Assembly (NCBI RefSeq): GCF_041361345.1
Contig: NZ_JBGKAD010000002.1
Location: 62,001 to 126,000, forward strand
Direction: 5' to 3'
DNA length: 64,000 nucleotides
DNA from: Halobaculum sp. MBLA0147
GTDB lineage: Archaea; Halobacteriota; Halobacteria; Halobacteriales; Haloferacaceae
A program made the translations under genes and the position numbers. Position 1 is the stretch's first letter. Every line of letters begins with the position of its first letter. The notes beneath the pieces were generated by a model, which had not been told where the DNA came from, ran no database searches, and saw only the letters and a list, made by a program, of their open reading frames with translations. Below, one piece after another: positions 1,260 through 8,183 of the stretch.

Positions 1260-2915
1260 ATGCGACTCCCGGAGGACGTGGTAGTGTCGTTGCGACGGGT
1301 GGCCGATGGTCTCGACCACCGAGGTCTCCCGCCGGAACTCGCCGTGTTGGTGCCGCTCGGTGCCGCACTCCGACTCTACGATCTCGGGGCCGAGAGCCTC
1401 TGGATCGACGAGGTGTTCACGACGACGATGGCGACCGAGCGGACGCTCCGGGAACTGCTCTTCGTGGTCCCGACGTTCGAGCCACACCCGCCGCTGTACA
1501 ACGTCTTCGTGTGGGTGTGGGTCCGTGTCGCGGGCGAGTCGGCGGTCGCACTCCGCGCTCCGTCGGTGATCTTCGGAGTCGCGGCGATTCCGCTCGTGTA
1601 CGCCCTCGGTCGCGACCTGTTCGACCGGTGGACGGCGACGGCCGCGACACTGCTGTTCACCGTCTCACCGCTCCAGATCTGGTACGCACAGGAGGCGCGG
1701 ATGTACGCGCTGCTCGTGGCGGCGACGCTCGTCTCCTTCCTCGCGTACCGGCGCCTGCCCGACGCGACCGACCGCCGGTCGACAGCGGTGTACGTCGTCG
1801 CCGCACTCGTTCTCGGCTACACCCACGTGTACGGGCTGTTCGTGCTACTGGCGCAGGGGACGGACGCCGTCCGGCGCCGGTGGCGCGGCGGTCGCAGCCT
1901 CTCGTGGCGGCGGATCGTCGCGTTGTACGGCGGACTCCTGCTTGGACTGTCGCCGTGGACCGGGCTGCTCGTCGCGCGAACACTCGTTCCGGAGTGGTTC
2001 CCGCCGGACGCGGCGGCGTGGCTCCGGGCACCCACTGGGCTGGAACTGGCCGACGCACTTCGGCTGCTGTCGGTCGGTGCGACGCGTGACACGCGACCGT
2101 ACGACGCGCTCGCGGCGCCGTCGGACGTGTTCGTCTTCGTCGTCGGGCTGTGTCTCTTCGCCGTCGCCGCGTTCTACACGCTGGGTGCCTTCGGGGAGCG
2201 AGGGTGGAGCGTCCGCCTGCTGACGGTGTGGCTCCTCGCGACCGTCGGTGTTCCGCTGGTGATCTCTGCGACCGTGCGGCCCATCTTCCAGTTGCGATAC
2301 CTGACCGTCGCTAGTCCGGCGGTCTTGCTGTTGGCAGCACGCGGCAGTCGAGCCGTCTCTATTATTCCGGTACGATACGTGCTGGTCGGACTCTTGTTGC
2401 TCGGGACGCTCGCGCCGCTCCCGAGCTACTACGCCGAACCGACGCGCGACCAGTGGGACGTGGCCGCGGCAGACGTGTCCGACCGCGTCGACGGCGACGA
2501 CGTAGTGGTAGTCGTCCCCGGGTGGACGTGGAACGGTCCGAGTGACGCGTTCGCCTACTACTTCGACCGCTCGGACGTGGCCGTCGAACCGCTGTACTCG
2601 TTCAGTCCGCGGGGGAGCTTCGCGGACGCAGTCGTCGGCCACGACGACGTGGTTCTCGTGGTGAGCTACACGAACGAGCGCGCGGCGGTCGTCGACCGCG
2701 TCGCGAACGCCACTGGGACGGCACCCACCGAGCGCCGGGAGTACGTGAGTGTCGTCGTGGTGGCGTTCGAACGCGACACGACCACGTCCGCCAGAGACTC
2801 GGAAGCGGCGACACAGACACCGCCGTCGACCCACGCGGCGGATCACGAGCGGCACCGTTCCCACGTTCGACCGGCTACACCGACCCGGATCGGGCAAAAC
2901 GAATTAACCGGGTAG
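1260..2915 (+). CDS. GT39/ArnT-like multipass membrane glycosyltransferase
   Basis: This is a 551-residue polytopic protein of the dolichol-phosphate-sugar:acceptor (PMT/ArnT) glycosyltransferase superfamily. Members move a sugar from a lipid-phosphate donor to an acceptor on the outer face of the membrane. The diagnostic first loop is present: ESLWIDEVF with the catalytic-type acidic residue near residue 50, followed by HPPLYN near residue 80, then roughly eight to ten hydrophobic helices and a soluble extracellular C-terminal domain of about 150 residues. The last 50 residues are polar and low in complexity. Start ATG 1260 is supported by a TATA-like element 27 bases upstream. It could take part in S-layer, archaellin or lipid glycosylation; the donor and acceptor cannot be read from sequence. 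Confidence 0.85.
   Translation: MRLPEDVVVSLRRVADGLDHRGLPPELAVLVPLGAALRLYDLGAESLWIDEVFTTTMATERTLRELLFVVPTFEPHPPLYNVFVWVWVRVAGESAVALRAPSVIFGVAAIPLVYALGRDLFDRWTATAATLLFTVSPLQIWYAQEARMYALLVAATLVSFLAYRRLPDATDRRSTAVYVVAALVLGYTHVYGLFVLLAQGTDAVRRRWRGGRSLSWRRIVALYGGLLLGLSPWTGLLVARTLVPEWFPPDAAAWLRAPTGLELADALRLLSVGATRDTRPYDALAAPSDVFVFVVGLCLFAVAAFYTLGAFGERGWSVRLLTVWLLATVGVPLVISATVRPIFQLRYLTVASPAVLLLAARGSRAVSIIPVRYVLVGLLLLGTLAPLPSYYAEPTRDQWDVAAADVSDRVDGDDVVVVVPGWTWNGPSDAFAYYFDRSDVAVEPLYSFSPRGSFADAVVGHDDVVLVVSYTNERAAVVDRVANATGTAPTERREYVSVVVVAFERDTTTSARDSEAATQTPPSTHAADHERHRSHVRPATPTRIGQNELTG
2901..2909 (+). promoter_or_regulatory. TATA-like promoter of the GAF histidine kinase
   Basis: GAATTAACC lies about 28 bases before ATG 2933 and overlaps the last codons of the preceding glycosyltransferase gene. 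Its position favours ATG 2933 over the in-frame GTG at 2915, which would be too close for a leaderless message. Confidence 0.55.
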
Positions 2916-2932
2916 TGCCCACGTACTACGGG

Positions 2933-4102
2933 ATGAGCGACGAACCCGGCCGTGCCGAGTTCTTCGGCGACCTCTACGACCTCCTGAACCTCCGCGAGGA
3001 CGACCTCGACGCCAAGATCGACGCCGCGATCGATATCGGCTGCGACCGGCTCGGTGTCGAGCACGGTGTCGTCACGCACACCCGCGACGGCGCCTACGAG
3101 GTGTTGGCGTCCTCGATCCGCGAGGGGGAGTACGCCGCCGGCTCCGTGACGGACCTCTCGACCACCTGGTGTCGCCACGTCGTCGACGACGGTGAAACGC
3201 TGGCCTTCGACGACGTGGACCGGACGCCGTACGCCGACGACGTGGCCCGCGAGGAGACGGGGCTGGTCTGTTACATCGGCGTCCCGCTCGTCGTCGAGGG
3301 AGAGACGTACGGGACACTGTGCTTCTCCGACACGGAGTCCCGTGGCGACGAGTTCACGCGTGCCGATCACGAGTTCGTGACGCTCCTCGCGGAGTGGGTG
3401 AGCTACGAGATCGAGTCGGCACTCCACGCAGAGGAACTCGTGGAACGGAACCGGCGACTCGACGAATTCACCGGCATCGTCGCCCACGACCTGCGGAACC
3501 CACTCACGGCCGCCATCGGCTACACGGAACTCGTCTCGGAACAGTTGGAGGGGCAACAGCGGGACCACTTGGAGGTCGTCGCGGAGAACCTCCACCGGAT
3601 GGAGTCGATGATCGACGGGCTGCTCCTGTTGGCTCAGCAGGGCCACGACGTGGGCGAGCGATCCCCCGTCCGCCTCGACGAGCTCGCACACGCCGCGTGG
3701 GAGACGATCGAGACGCGCGACGCGACGCTGGTCGTCGAGACGGATCGACAGGTGTTCGCGGACGAGGCGCGACTCAGACAGGTGTTCGAGAACCTGTTCC
3801 GGAACGCCGTCGAACACTGTCCCCCGGGCGTGAGCGTGACGGTCCGCGGCACGCCCGACGGGTTCGAGGTGGCCGACGACGGGCCCGGACTGCCGGCGGA
3901 GTTGGCCGAGACCCTGTTCGACAGAGACCGGATCGGCGACGGCGAGCGGCGCGGCCTCGGACTCCTCATCGTCGAGCGGATCGTTCGCGGCCACGACTGG
4001 GACGTGAGCGTCGAGAGCGGCGACGACGGGACGACGTTCCGTGTCACGGGCGTCCAGCGCGGGCCCGAGACACATCCCGAGGGCGAGGCGTCTGCCTCGT
4101 GA
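2933..4102 (+). CDS. GAF-domain sensor histidine kinase
   Basis: This is a cytosolic sensor kinase of 389 residues with no membrane segment. A GAF domain spans about residues 20-165 (DIGCDRLGVEHGV to the GVPLVVEGETYGTLCF core). A HisKA helix follows, with phospho-acceptor His185 in VAHDLRNPL, then a HATPase domain with N-box FENLFRNAVEH, G1 box VADDGPGLP and a short G2 region RGLGLLIVERI. All catalytic motifs are intact. It would sense a small ligand or redox signal through GAF and phosphorylate a receiver; the stand-alone receiver gene at 4407 is the nearest candidate, but about 300 bases separate them. The start was chosen from the TATA-like box at 2901. Confidence 0.92.
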   Translation: MSDEPGRAEFFGDLYDLLNLREDDLDAKIDAAIDIGCDRLGVEHGVVTHTRDGAYEVLASSIREGEYAAGSVTDLSTTWCRHVVDDGETLAFDDVDRTPYADDVAREETGLVCYIGVPLVVEGETYGTLCFSDTESRGDEFTRADHEFVTLLAEWVSYEIESALHAEELVERNRRLDEFTGIVAHDLRNPLTAAIGYTELVSEQLEGQQRDHLEVVAENLHRMESMIDGLLLLAQQGHDVGERSPVRLDELAHAAWETIETRDATLVVETDRQVFADEARLRQVFENLFRNAVEHCPPGVSVTVRGTPDGFEVADDGPGLPAELAETLFDRDRIGDGERRGLGLLIVERIVRGHDWDVSVESGDDGTTFRVTGVQRGPETHPEGEASAS

Positions 4103-4406: not shown

Positions 4407-4781
4407 ATGACACACACCATCGTGATCGCGGACGACGACGACTCCGTGCGGCGACTCGTTGAGCACAAACTGTCCGCTGCGGGGTACGAGGTGGAGAGTT
4501 TCGTCAACGGGAGCCGAACCTGGGACCACCTCCAGACTGCTCCCGTCCCGGACCTGTGCGTGCTCGACGTGATGATGCCGGGACTCACCGGACTCCAAGT
4601 GGTCGAGCGGATGCGCGACGACGAGGCCCTCGCGGACGTGCCTGTGGTCGTCCTCTCCTCGCGGGGTCGCGAGGCGGACGTACTCGACGGACTGGAGAGT
4701 GGAGCGACCGACTACGTCACGAAGCCGTTCAGTCCGCGCGAACTCCTCTCGCGTGTCCGACTGCGGCTCGGCGAGGAGTGA
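4407..4781 (+). CDS. Stand-alone CheY-like response regulator receiver
   Basis: This is a 124-residue single receiver domain with no output domain. The acidic pocket is Asp9-Asp12, the phosphorylation site is Asp54 in LDVMMPG, the switch Ser/Thr is near residue 84 and the invariant Lys106 lies in VTKPFSP, so it should be phosphorylatable. It is followed 13 bases later by the HEAT-repeat gene and then by an overlapping glycosyltransferase, so the three almost certainly form one transcript. The likely role is to control polysaccharide synthesis by protein contact rather than DNA binding. The partner kinase may be the GAF kinase upstream; that link is inference. Confidence 0.93.
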   Translation: MTHTIVIADDDDSVRRLVEHKLSAAGYEVESFVNGSRTWDHLQTAPVPDLCVLDVMMPGLTGLQVVERMRDDEALADVPVVVLSSRGREADVLDGLESGATDYVTKPFSPRELLSRVRLRLGEE

Positions 4782-4794
4782 CAGACGGCGAGGT

Positions 4795-6153
4795 ATGACC
4801 CCCGACTACGCACACCCCGTCGTCTCGCAACTGCCACGGCCGACGGCCGAGACAGCAATCTTCGCCGGTATCGTCCTGCTGGCGCTGTTGATCGCCGTCG
4901 CCGTGTTGACCCTCGCAGAGTCGGTCTACCAGTACCGTCGCGACCGCCGACGCGACCGCGTCCGTGAGGACGTAGAGTTGGCCCTGCTGTCTCGGATGTC
5001 CGACCCCGATCCGGAGTGGGACGAGTGGGTGGCGTCTGCGTCGACCCCGGAACGAGACGTGGCGCGCGAACTGTTGGACGACTACCTCCGGACCGTCGAG
5101 GGGACGGAGCGAGCGAACCTCGTCGAACTCGTCCGCGAGTTGGGAATCTTCGCGGAGGCACGCGAGACGCTGGACGGTGGGGCGAGACACGAGAAGCTCC
5201 AGGCGCTCGGCTGGTTCGCGCTCTCCGGCGAAGGCGTCGATCCCGACCGGCTCGAGGCGACCTGTACTGGCGGCAACGATCTCCGAGCGGCGGCCGCCCG
5301 CGTGCTGTACGAGGCCGACCATCCGGACGCCCGCGAGCGTGGGACGGACCTGCTGGTGGGTGACGGCTCCACGACGTTGACCACCCACGGGTTGGACACG
5401 CTGTACCGACTGTACGAGACGGATCCGAAGCCGTTGCTCGACCGGGCGGCCGCGGAAGGGGACGAGTGGGGACTCTCCCTAGTCGTGCAGGTGCTGTCGG
5501 TGATCCGCCACACCGGCCTGTTGGCGCAGGACGCCGACTGGTCGTTCGTCCGCGATCACACGACCCACGAGTCGCCGTCCGTCCGCGCCGCGGCGGCGCA
5601 GGCGTTCGGCCCGCCGGGGTGGGACCCGGCCTTCCGAGAGTCCGTCCCCGTCGAGCGACTGCTCGCGGACCCACACCGCAACGTCCGACGCGCGACGTAC
5701 GAAGTGCTCGCGGAGTGGGGCGACGGCCGCTCGCTGGAGCTGCTCCGGGAGGCGTTGCGAACGGAACCGGACCAGCGTTCCCGTCTGCGAGGCTTGGAAG
5801 CGTTGGACGACAACCAACTCACCGAACTGGAACTTGGAGTTCCCACGGCCGACGACAACCGAGACGACGGACCGGTGCCGTCCGTTCCCGTCGCAGGGGA
5901 CGCTGCCGCCGACACCACCCCGCCAGCGCCGACGGTCGACACCGAAGACGACGGCGAGGTGACGGCTGGCACCGCCGCCGGCTCGCCGACAGAGACCGGC
6001 GCCACCGATCCCGCGGCAGCGGAGCCCGCCGACGCCGACCAGGCGGTCGACGTGGCAGTCGACGCCGGGGGTCAGTCCCTGACACCGGACCCGACGGCGT
6101 TCGACCGAGCCCTGGCGTGGGTGCGCGCAGACCGGGAGGCGAGCGACCGGTGA
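4795..6153 (+). CDS. Membrane-anchored HEAT-repeat protein
   Basis: This 452-residue protein has one N-terminal transmembrane helix (about residues 22-45, AIFAGIVLLALLIAVAV) and a long cytoplasmic alpha-helical solenoid. HEAT/PBS-lyase-like repeats are recognisable as repeated DLRAAAARVL, SVRAAAAQAFG and NVRRATYEVLAEWGDGRSLEL units between about residues 90 and 330. The last 110 residues form a disordered acidic Thr/Ala/Asp-rich tail. ATG 4795 was chosen because it starts just before the membrane helix. The stop codon overlaps the GTG of the glycosyltransferase (GTGA), indicating translational coupling. In polysaccharide synthase operons such solenoids often act as scaffolds; here it could bridge the receiver upstream and the synthase downstream. 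No catalytic motif is seen. Confidence 0.85.
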   Translation: MTPDYAHPVVSQLPRPTAETAIFAGIVLLALLIAVAVLTLAESVYQYRRDRRRDRVREDVELALLSRMSDPDPEWDEWVASASTPERDVARELLDDYLRTVEGTERANLVELVRELGIFAEARETLDGGARHEKLQALGWFALSGEGVDPDRLEATCTGGNDLRAAAARVLYEADHPDARERGTDLLVGDGSTTLTTHGLDTLYRLYETDPKPLLDRAAAEGDEWGLSLVVQVLSVIRHTGLLAQDADWSFVRDHTTHESPSVRAAAAQAFGPPGWDPAFRESVPVERLLADPHRNVRRATYEVLAEWGDGRSLELLREALRTEPDQRSRLRGLEALDDNQLTELELGVPTADDNRDDGPVPSVPVAGDAAADTTPPAPTVDTEDDGEVTAGTAAGSPTETGATDPAAAEPADADQAVDVAVDAGGQSLTPDPTAFDRALAWVRADREASDR

Positions 6154-8183
6154 CCCCCGAAGCGGCGTTCACGCAGTTGCTCGCCGTCACCGGGGTCGTC
6201 ATCTTCGGCTACTACCTGCTGGTGAACGGGAACTACCTGTTCGTCCACGTGGTGGCGCTGCTGCAACTGCGCGAGGAGGTCCGCGAGGACCAGTGGGACC
6301 CCACCTACGAGCCGTTCACGACGCCGTTCCTCCCGGGCATCGCCATCGTCGTCCCGGCGTACAACGAGGCGAGCGTGATCCGCGAGAGTGTGCAGTCACT
6401 GCTGACCGTCAACTACCCCGACAAGGAGGTGATCGTCGTCAACGACGGGTCGACGGACGACACGCTCGATCGCCTCCGAGAGTCCTACGACCTCCACCGA
6501 GTCGCCGCGGAGGTGCCGATCGACGTTCCTAGCGAGACGATCCGGGCGGTGTACCGCAGCGGCGACCGCGGCGACCTCCTCGTCGTCGACAAGGAGAACG
6601 GCGGGAAGAGCGACGCGTTGAACGCCGGACTCTGGCTGACGGACAAGGAGTTGTTCTGTGCCGTCGACGCCGACTCCGTCGTCGACAAGGACTCGCTGTT
6701 GGAGATCGTCCGCCCGTTCTTGGAGCAGCCCCGCTCGATGGTCGCCGTCGGCGGAACCGTCCGAGTCGCGAACGACTGTACGATCGAGTACGGGCAGGTG
6801 ACGGAGGTGTCGCTAGACCAGGCACCGCTCGTCGCGGTGCAGGTGATGGAGTACCTGCGAGCGTTCTACTCCGGGCGGCTCGGGTTGAGCCGGCTGAAGG
6901 GGTTGATCCTCATCTCCGGCGCGTTCGGCCTGTTCCGGACGCAGGTCGTCCGCGAGATCGGCGGCTACCGCGAGGACACGATCACCGAGGACTTCGACCT
7001 GCTCGTCAGGCTCCACCGCCACCTGATGCAGGAGGACCGCGAGTACGCGGTGGAGTTCCTCCCGCAGCCGGTGATCTGGACGGAAGTGCCGGAGTCGTTG
7101 GCCGTCCTCAGTCGGCAACGGCGGCGGTGGTACCGCGGGATGGTGGAGACGCTGTGGACGAACCGCGACATGATCGGGAACCCGACGTACGGCCGGATCG
7201 GCGTGTACATCCTCCCCTTCTTCGCCCTGGCGGAGTTGCTCGGACCGCTGATCGAAGGGTTGGGGTACCTCCTGATCCCGCTGGCGGTGTACTTCGGGGC
7301 GTTGAACGTGGAGTTCTTCGTGTTGTACTTCGTCGTGACGACCGGGTTCGGCGTGTTCCTCTCGTGGTTCGGCGTCTACAGCGAGGTGACCTCCTTCCGG
7401 CGGTACGACGATCCACGCGAGATTCTCTCACTGCTGGGTGACGGTGTGCTTGAGAACTTCGGCTACAGACAGTGGAAGACGTACCTCGCGTGGCGTGGGT
7501 TGTTCGAGTACCTCCGCGGCGACTCTTCGTGGGGTGTGATGGACCGTGCCGGGTTCGACGACGGGGAGGGAGAGACCGACGACGGGGCAACGAGAGCGGC
7601 CAGAGAGACGAGCGAGACCGAGGACGGCTTCGTCTGGGCGACGCCCGTCACACCGGACGGGCGCACTGGCGACGGGGACGGGGCGGGCCTGCGTGACACG
7701 GGCAGACAACGGCACCAGACGGACGGCTTCCTCTGGGGTGCCGGTGGCGACGGCTTCCTGTGGGGCGTGAGCCGCGACGGGTTCCGGTGGGGCGCGGGTC
7801 GTGACGGCTTCCGCCGGGGTCCGATGGGAGACGACAGTCGACGAGGGTGTCTGGGTGACGAGTTCCAGTGGAGTACCGGAGGCGACGGCTTCCGGTGGGG
7901 CACCGGCGGCGAGCGGGACGCCGCCCTGTGGGCCACCGACGGGGACGGCTTCGTCTGGGCGGCTCCGCTCGCGACGGGGTTCCAGTGGGTCGTCGGCGAC
8001 GGCGAGCGCGTCGTCGCCGGTCTCGTTCCACACGACAGGCCGACGGCCGCGACAGAACTCGCTGTGACGCCTGCCGACCCCACCGACGACTGGCTCTGGG
8101 GGCGTGTCTCGTCACGAGACGGGTTCGAGTGGGGACTCCGCGAGACGGCCGAGCGCGAACGGAGCGAACTCGACGACGACTGA
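6150..8183 (+). CDS. Processive family-2 glycosyltransferase with DGFxWG-repeat tail
   Basis: This is a 677-residue membrane glycosyltransferase of the cellulose/hyaluronan/PNAG synthase type, which polymerises and probably exports a polysaccharide. One or two helices at the N-terminus precede a GT2 domain (about residues 65-340). Its motifs are VVPAYNEAS, NDGSTDDT near residue 98, DAD near residue 172, TED near residue 278 and QRRRW near residue 323, the full processive set (D, DxD, TED, QxxRW). Three or four membrane helices follow (about 350-430). From about residue 490 the protein changes into an acidic/Gly/Trp-rich tail with about eleven imperfect DGFxWG units, which is not part of the known family fold. 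The GTG start at 6150 overlaps the HEAT gene stop. The polymer is unknown. Confidence 0.92.
   Translation: MTPEAAFTQLLAVTGVVIFGYYLLVNGNYLFVHVVALLQLREEVREDQWDPTYEPFTTPFLPGIAIVVPAYNEASVIRESVQSLLTVNYPDKEVIVVNDGSTDDTLDRLRESYDLHRVAAEVPIDVPSETIRAVYRSGDRGDLLVVDKENGGKSDALNAGLWLTDKELFCAVDADSVVDKDSLLEIVRPFLEQPRSMVAVGGTVRVANDCTIEYGQVTEVSLDQAPLVAVQVMEYLRAFYSGRLGLSRLKGLILISGAFGLFRTQVVREIGGYREDTITEDFDLLVRLHRHLMQEDREYAVEFLPQPVIWTEVPESLAVLSRQRRRWYRGMVETLWTNRDMIGNPTYGRIGVYILPFFALAELLGPLIEGLGYLLIPLAVYFGALNVEFFVLYFVVTTGFGVFLSWFGVYSEVTSFRRYDDPREILSLLGDGVLENFGYRQWKTYLAWRGLFEYLRGDSSWGVMDRAGFDDGEGETDDGATRAARETSETEDGFVWATPVTPDGRTGDGDGAGLRDTGRQRHQTDGFLWGAGGDGFLWGVSRDGFRWGAGRDGFRRGPMGDDSRRGCLGDEFQWSTGGDGFRWGTGGERDAALWATDGDGFVWAAPLATGFQWVVGDGERVVAGLVPHDRPTAATELAVTPADPTDDWLWGRVSSRDGFEWGLRETAERERSELDDD
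7621..8136 (+). repeat. DGFxWG repeat region inside the glycosyltransferase gene
   Basis: In the translated frame the hexad DGF-x-W-(G/A) recurs as DGFVWA, DGFLWG, DGFLWG, DGFRWG, DGFRRG, DEFQWS, DGFRWG, DGFVWA, TGFQWV, DWLWGR and DGFEWG. The centre has a period of 9-10 residues (27-30 bases) and the flanks are looser. The DNA copies are imperfect (GACGGCTTCC/GACGGGTTCC followed by TGGGG), so the protein pattern is better conserved than the nucleotide pattern. Confidence 0.9.

Follow-up and report, generated by a model that had tools for sequence, protein, structure and literature searches.

A repeated G-hydrophobic-x-W tail on a processive-type family-2 glycosyltransferase of haloarchaea

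The closest described counterparts of the synthase considered here are the PgaC/IcaA enzymes (TIGR03937), family-2 glycosyltransferases (GT2) with which it shares D, DxD, TED and QxxRW motifs and membrane helices, and, as nearest solved folds, the hyaluronan synthase of a Chlorella virus (7sp6/8sne) and BcsA (4p00), with which it shares a GT-A domain, interface helices and membrane helices. Identity to the two solved proteins is 16-18%, and BcsA has a PilZ domain, whereas our synthase has no PilZ match. We know of no PgaC/IcaA protein with a tail of the DGFxW type; to our knowledge hyaluronan synthase and BcsA also lack a repeat tail, and both have more membrane helices than the present enzyme. 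The gene studied lies in a stretch of 64,000 nucleotides from Halobaculum sp. MBLA0147, here called the window, and its product ends in a tail that is undescribed in the libraries and literature searched.

The synthase and its gene cluster

The synthase gene occupies 6153..8183 on the plus strand and encodes 676 residues; its GTG start overlaps the stop of the gene before it. The reading-frame check found neither stop nor frameshift within 6153-8183, that is, a single intact frame. Two Pfam GT2 domains score above cut-off (PF13641, 4.2e-27; PF00535, 2.4e-22). The core, residues 1-468 (6153..7556, plus strand), closes at WGVMDRAGF, the point where tail-less orthologues end, and AlphaFold, Foldseek and the orthologue ends delimit in it an N-terminal helix, the GT-A domain, two membrane helices and one amphipathic helix. 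As the earlier note had claimed, all of the processive motifs are present: D98 (in DGS), D172AD174, T278ED280 and Q322RRRW326. AlphaFold models the core mostly at pLDDT 80-95. Its fold neighbours by Foldseek are hyaluronan, chitin and cellulose synthases, led by hyaluronan synthase 8sne (E 9.8e-16, probability 1.00), and the fold is of the membrane-integrated HAS/BcsA kind. By its motifs and domains, then, the protein is a processive-type GT2 polysaccharide synthase in the broad sense. Its top NCBIfam match, TIGR03937, reaches 137.1 bits, far under the cut-off of 422.3, and the CelA cellulose synthase model (TIGR03030) 66.8 bits against 699.1; both identities were rejected, and with these curated cut-offs missed the polymer product cannot be named.

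The gene that the synthase overlaps (4795..6153, plus strand) encodes a membrane-anchored HEAT-repeat protein of 452 residues (Pfam HEAT_2, 1.4e-13) with a hydrophobic helix at its N-terminus, and almost every haloarchaeal orthologue examined has such a gene next to the synthase. A conserved neighbour, a single-domain response regulator receiver (4407..4781, plus strand; Pfam Response_reg, 3e-27), precedes it, and upstream lies a GAF histidine kinase assigned by Pfam (2915..4102, plus strand), homologues of which sit beside the cassette in many relatives, in varying position and strand. The order response regulator, HEAT protein, synthase is kept in nearly all the haloarchaeal orthologues examined, with or without a tail. 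A HEAT gene also precedes the synthase in a Verrucomicrobiales bin (locus L059, 17-1603), which has the regulator too, and a HEAT-GT2 pair occurs in an Actinomycetota bin (locus L060, 4652-5989). This recurrence across haloarchaea and bacterial bins suggests an old regulated synthase module. Given the bacterial HEAT-synthase pairs and the tail-free haloarchaeal cassettes, the cassette is probably older than the tail, which would be an add-on to a working module.

Comparison of HEAT proteins for a feature tracking the synthase tail gave none, in that the C-terminal AWxW..EH motif occurs both with and without a tail. The conserved form is AWxWxxEHxxxD-like (about 6090-6150 in the window, and about 5830-5968 in the Halorubrum locus L041), and before it comes a stretch that varies and is probably disordered (in the window, AFDRALAWVRADREASDR). 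On a draft contig of Halorubrum coriense the HEAT gene loses frame part way (L055, about 5400-5960).

The repeat tail

The tail comprises residues 469-676 (208 residues), beginning at about 7557, right after WGVMDRAGF. It consists of an acidic linker (DDGEGETDDGATRAARETSETE; 7557..7622, plus strand), the repeats themselves (7623..8135, plus strand) and a charged C-terminal end (RETAERERSELDDD; 8136..8180, plus strand) that AlphaFold predicts to be helical (residues 655-675, pLDDT about 42-64). The earlier count of roughly eleven DGFxW-type units stands: the motif listing gives seven exact DGFxW(G/A) hexads, at residues 491, 524, 533, 542, 578, 598 and 656, and four degenerate ones, DGFRRG at 551, DEFQWS at 569, TGFQWV at 608 and DDWLWG at 645. 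GFxW occurs eight times, whereas 20,000 shuffles of the tail averaged 0.11 occurrences and never exceeded 4. The period of 9-10 residues, also claimed earlier, applies in part. It is strictly nine within a block of seven contiguous, in-register 27-bp units (7722..7910, plus strand; residues 524-586), the fifth of which has decayed to DDSRRGCLG; elsewhere the motifs are 10 to 37 residues apart. TRF called 7722-7812 and 7857-7912, both at a period of 27 bp. A frameshift leaving the tail untranslated was looked for in this frame and none was found; the true frame has the top codon score of the six, over the whole tail and over each third, and on that measure the tail is coding in the synthase frame.

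The window tail matched nothing in Pfam, NCBIfam or the PDB sequences, and the tails of Halorubrum orthologues (below) gave only sub-threshold chance matches there, including one PDB match at E 0.31. No known domain having been found in these three libraries, the module is undescribed, as the earlier note had supposed, and keyword searches of the open-access literature returned no paper on the response regulator-HEAT-synthase cluster or on the tail. Viral contigs searched with the window and Halorubrum tails, and plasmids searched with the Halorubrum tail, yielded nothing. We considered the DGGFVW of Halorubrum as an Asp-box (D-x-G-x-x-W) and dropped that identity, there being no Pfam match and a spacing of 15 residues; propeller blades need a longer spacing than this.

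Motifs in the window's own genome were counted by DNA pattern search. Across 392 genomes the tandem-DGFxW pattern hit that genome and gave two matches in other genomes, which look like chance, the two motifs being separated by a stop in frame or by a change of frame. A paired-GGFVW pattern gave protein-level matches in Halorubrum alone, at one locus per genome, that of the synthase; its other matches, set aside, fell in CRISPR repeats (GGGTTCGTCTGGAAC...) or in a few stretches of low complexity. The window's own genome carries two CRISPR-like arrays (G000, contig C1, about 1936572-1936714 and 1999329-1999537), the repeats of which contain CTTCAACCCCACAACGGGTTCGTCTGGAAC. The earlier note had asked whether the repeats occur in other synthases; they do in Halorubrum orthologues, in the GGFVW form, and the tandem DGFxW matches elsewhere in the 392 genomes look like chance.

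Behind the catalytic domain AlphaFold places membrane helices at 344-380 and 386-415 and then a helix at 421-454, which is amphipathic (maximum hydropathy 0.03). With two membrane helices followed by an amphipathic one, and on the model of the HAS/BcsA fold, the tail is probably inside the cell, on the catalytic, cytoplasmic side, where the earlier note had put it. Structure prediction of the tail, proposed in that note, was carried out on the window synthase and on Halorubrum L041. The window tail has no predicted fold (pLDDT 22-34 over most of 471-650), although a low value says little about disorder when the alignment behind it is shallow. The Halorubrum L041 tail has one predicted strand per motif (604-608, 619-623, 634-638, 649-653, 663-668, 679-684 and 694-697), at 15-residue spacing and a pLDDT of about 35-55.

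Distribution, origin and selection

In the three genus mates covered, all GT2 matches are distant and the synthase has no orthologue. Scanning the GTDB genome collection turned up orthologues in Halorubrum and in many further haloarchaea, and in eleven Halorubrum species the frame ran 180-252 residues beyond the core, with GGFVW repeats. Within the order, 60 of 392 genomes have a synthase match at E 1e-80 or better, and gene ends were read at 59 loci. Long tails, 138-252 residues in length and carrying 6-9 motifs, are found at 12 of the 59, all in Halorubrum; one further locus has a 69-residue tail with two RFEW motifs, one a 41-residue extension without motif, and 45 end within 30 residues (1-30) of the core. 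The long tail is present in 12 of the 15 sampled Halorubrum genomes that have the synthase gene, though for some of these the genus label rests on a tail identical to that of a named Halorubrum record. Apart from the window gene, every sampled orthologue outside Halorubrum is without a tail, and the best-matching tail-less one is 67-68% identical to the window synthase. Because the other sampled haloarchaeal orthologues stop so soon after the core, the tail is, on this distribution, a lineage-restricted accessory of the synthase. The earlier note had counted tail-less homologues in close relatives against the tail, and such homologues are largely what was found; yet this leaves the tail standing, as its motif is under selection in the Halorubrum genes (below).

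At two other loci, L176 (genome G048) and L086 (genome G039), the synthase match is spread over more than one frame, which looks like a frameshift or a misassembly. In Halorubrum sp. LUM.57 (L054, 5974-7581) the 69-residue tail is a duplicated core end plus RFEW (SWGVMERSGF...RFEWTDPEDSWRDLERSGP...RFEWVDPE), and the tail of L140 is identical to it; a duplication of this type is a possible picture of how synthase tails start.

The GGFVW-tail orthologues of Halorubrum (L035-L043, L047 and L055) resemble the window gene in having an orthologous core (about 64-68% identity), the same response regulator-HEAT-GT2 cluster, a tail that begins at exactly the same point, right after WGxMxRxGF, and a G-hydrophobic-x-W motif repeated 6-9 times. 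They differ in that their units are 15 residues long (DGGFVWTTDPSxGVG), with acidic, Arg-poor spacers, whereas those of the window are 9-residue DGFxWG units with 11% Arg/Lys, and the two sorts of tail can be aligned only by the motif. Gly, Asp and Pro are near-invariant around the Halorubrum motif, and whole units have been lost between close species (L144 versus L147).

In core trees the window gene, on a fairly long branch, falls outside a supported group (98/97; 98 in a second tree) that holds the tailed Halorubrum genes together with tail-less genes of Haloarcula, Halobaculum and others, and a forced clade of the window and tailed Halorubrum genes was rejected (AU p 0.0009). Since they are not one clade, the two tails probably arose separately. 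Movement of the tail alone by recombination, or repeated losses, is the less likely alternative. Position and motif are common to both tails, but the unit lengths are unequal and the pairwise BLASTP match is only marginal (E 0.025).

Taken as a whole the Halorubrum tail has a dN/dS of 0.52, versus 0.22 for the core. By class, pN/pS was 0.13 in motif columns, 0.64 in spacers, 0.81 in the Ala-rich linker and 0.24 in the core (pN 0.078, pS 0.325). As the motif columns behind the 0.13 had been chosen for being conserved, the measurement was repeated. The rubrum/aquaticum/halodurans clade served to define the columns, and pN and pS were then taken from the remaining eight species: motif codons gave pN 0.051 and pS 0.396, versus 0.228 and 0.370 for the rest of the repeat region. 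The reverse split was weaker (0.086/0.167 versus 0.174/0.301), because just three close species remain. The codon comparisons firmly place the Halorubrum motif under purifying selection. Among the seven contiguous units of the window, hexad codons have pN 0.163 and pS 0.569, and spacers 0.478 and 0.685, at few sites. Constraint on the window hexads is thus suggested, and the earlier claim that protein is conserved better than DNA holds for the hexads, its corollary of selection being firm in Halorubrum and suggestive in the window.

What the tail may do

The reading we favor, at a probability of roughly 0.45, makes the tail a mostly disordered, multivalent region of short motifs on the cytoplasmic side, serving to cluster synthases or to dock a partner. 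Each G-hydrophobic-x-W unit would be a weak aromatic sticker, with Gly/Asp/Arg or Ala stretches as spacers, and many such weak contacts would either gather several synthases together or tether the synthase to a partner in the cytoplasm. We infer cytoplasmic location, disorder and multivalent binding alike; such a tail fits best because the motifs are constrained, the spacers drift, copy number varies and predicted order is low. The range of motif number and tail length among close Halorubrum species fits it as well, and the matching motif at a matching place in two lineages that the AU test keeps apart counts in its favor. With its gene adjoining and a hydrophobic helix at its N-terminus, the HEAT protein would be the natural first candidate partner, though tail-less loci carry the HEAT and regulator genes just as regularly, so the tail would not be needed for basic HEAT-synthase contact.

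The strand at every GFVW of L041 counts against disorder, since the tail could instead be a folded beta-repeat, its 15-residue (Halorubrum) or 9-residue (window) units stacked as a small solenoid or sheet with a single binding partner. The near-invariant Gly, Asp and Pro would suit such a fold; but confidence at those strands is low, the irregularly spaced 9-residue units of the window show no such strands, and unequal unit lengths would mean unequal folds, so that we think this somewhat unlikely. A neutral minisatellite, in which a DNA unit of 27 bp (or 45 bp) slips at the end of a gene and is tolerated as that part of the protein matters little, would explain the tandem units, their differing number among species, the decay of one window unit to DDSRRG and the lack of a tail in most orthologues. 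This is nevertheless hard to hold for Halorubrum, where pN/pS at cross-validated motif columns (about 0.13) is below that of the core and motifs persist while spacers and linker drift, and overall it appears quite unlikely. Repeats that are aromatic and rich in Asp and Gly bear a broad likeness to sugar-contacting surfaces. GT2 synthases of this class pass their polymer outward. A module contacting carbohydrate, as the earlier note suggested, or a lipid primer, with Trp/Phe stacking on sugars, would suit a protein that is by family a sugar-polymer synthase, but is very improbable, as no carbohydrate-binding family in Pfam, NCBIfam or the PDB sequences matches the tail, which is expected inside the cell, away from the exported polymer.

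FG-nucleoporin repeats are short aromatic-Gly motifs in a disordered chain and are bound by HEAT-repeat importins. The multivalent tail beside a HEAT-repeat protein recalls them by analogy only; the motif and the organism are other ones and there is no homology. It would be an improbable, if attractive, extension that two haloarchaeal lineages independently evolved a G-hydrophobic-x-W tail that docks on a HEAT adaptor under response-regulator control and so sets polymer synthesis, a prokaryotic counterpart of the FG-repeat/HEAT pairing.

In sum, a tail that recurs at one position in lineages whose genes do not group, and in which selection bears on four to five residues, is a compact example for the study of short functional motifs in archaea and a conserved starting point for asking how their surface-polymer synthases might be regulated or clustered.
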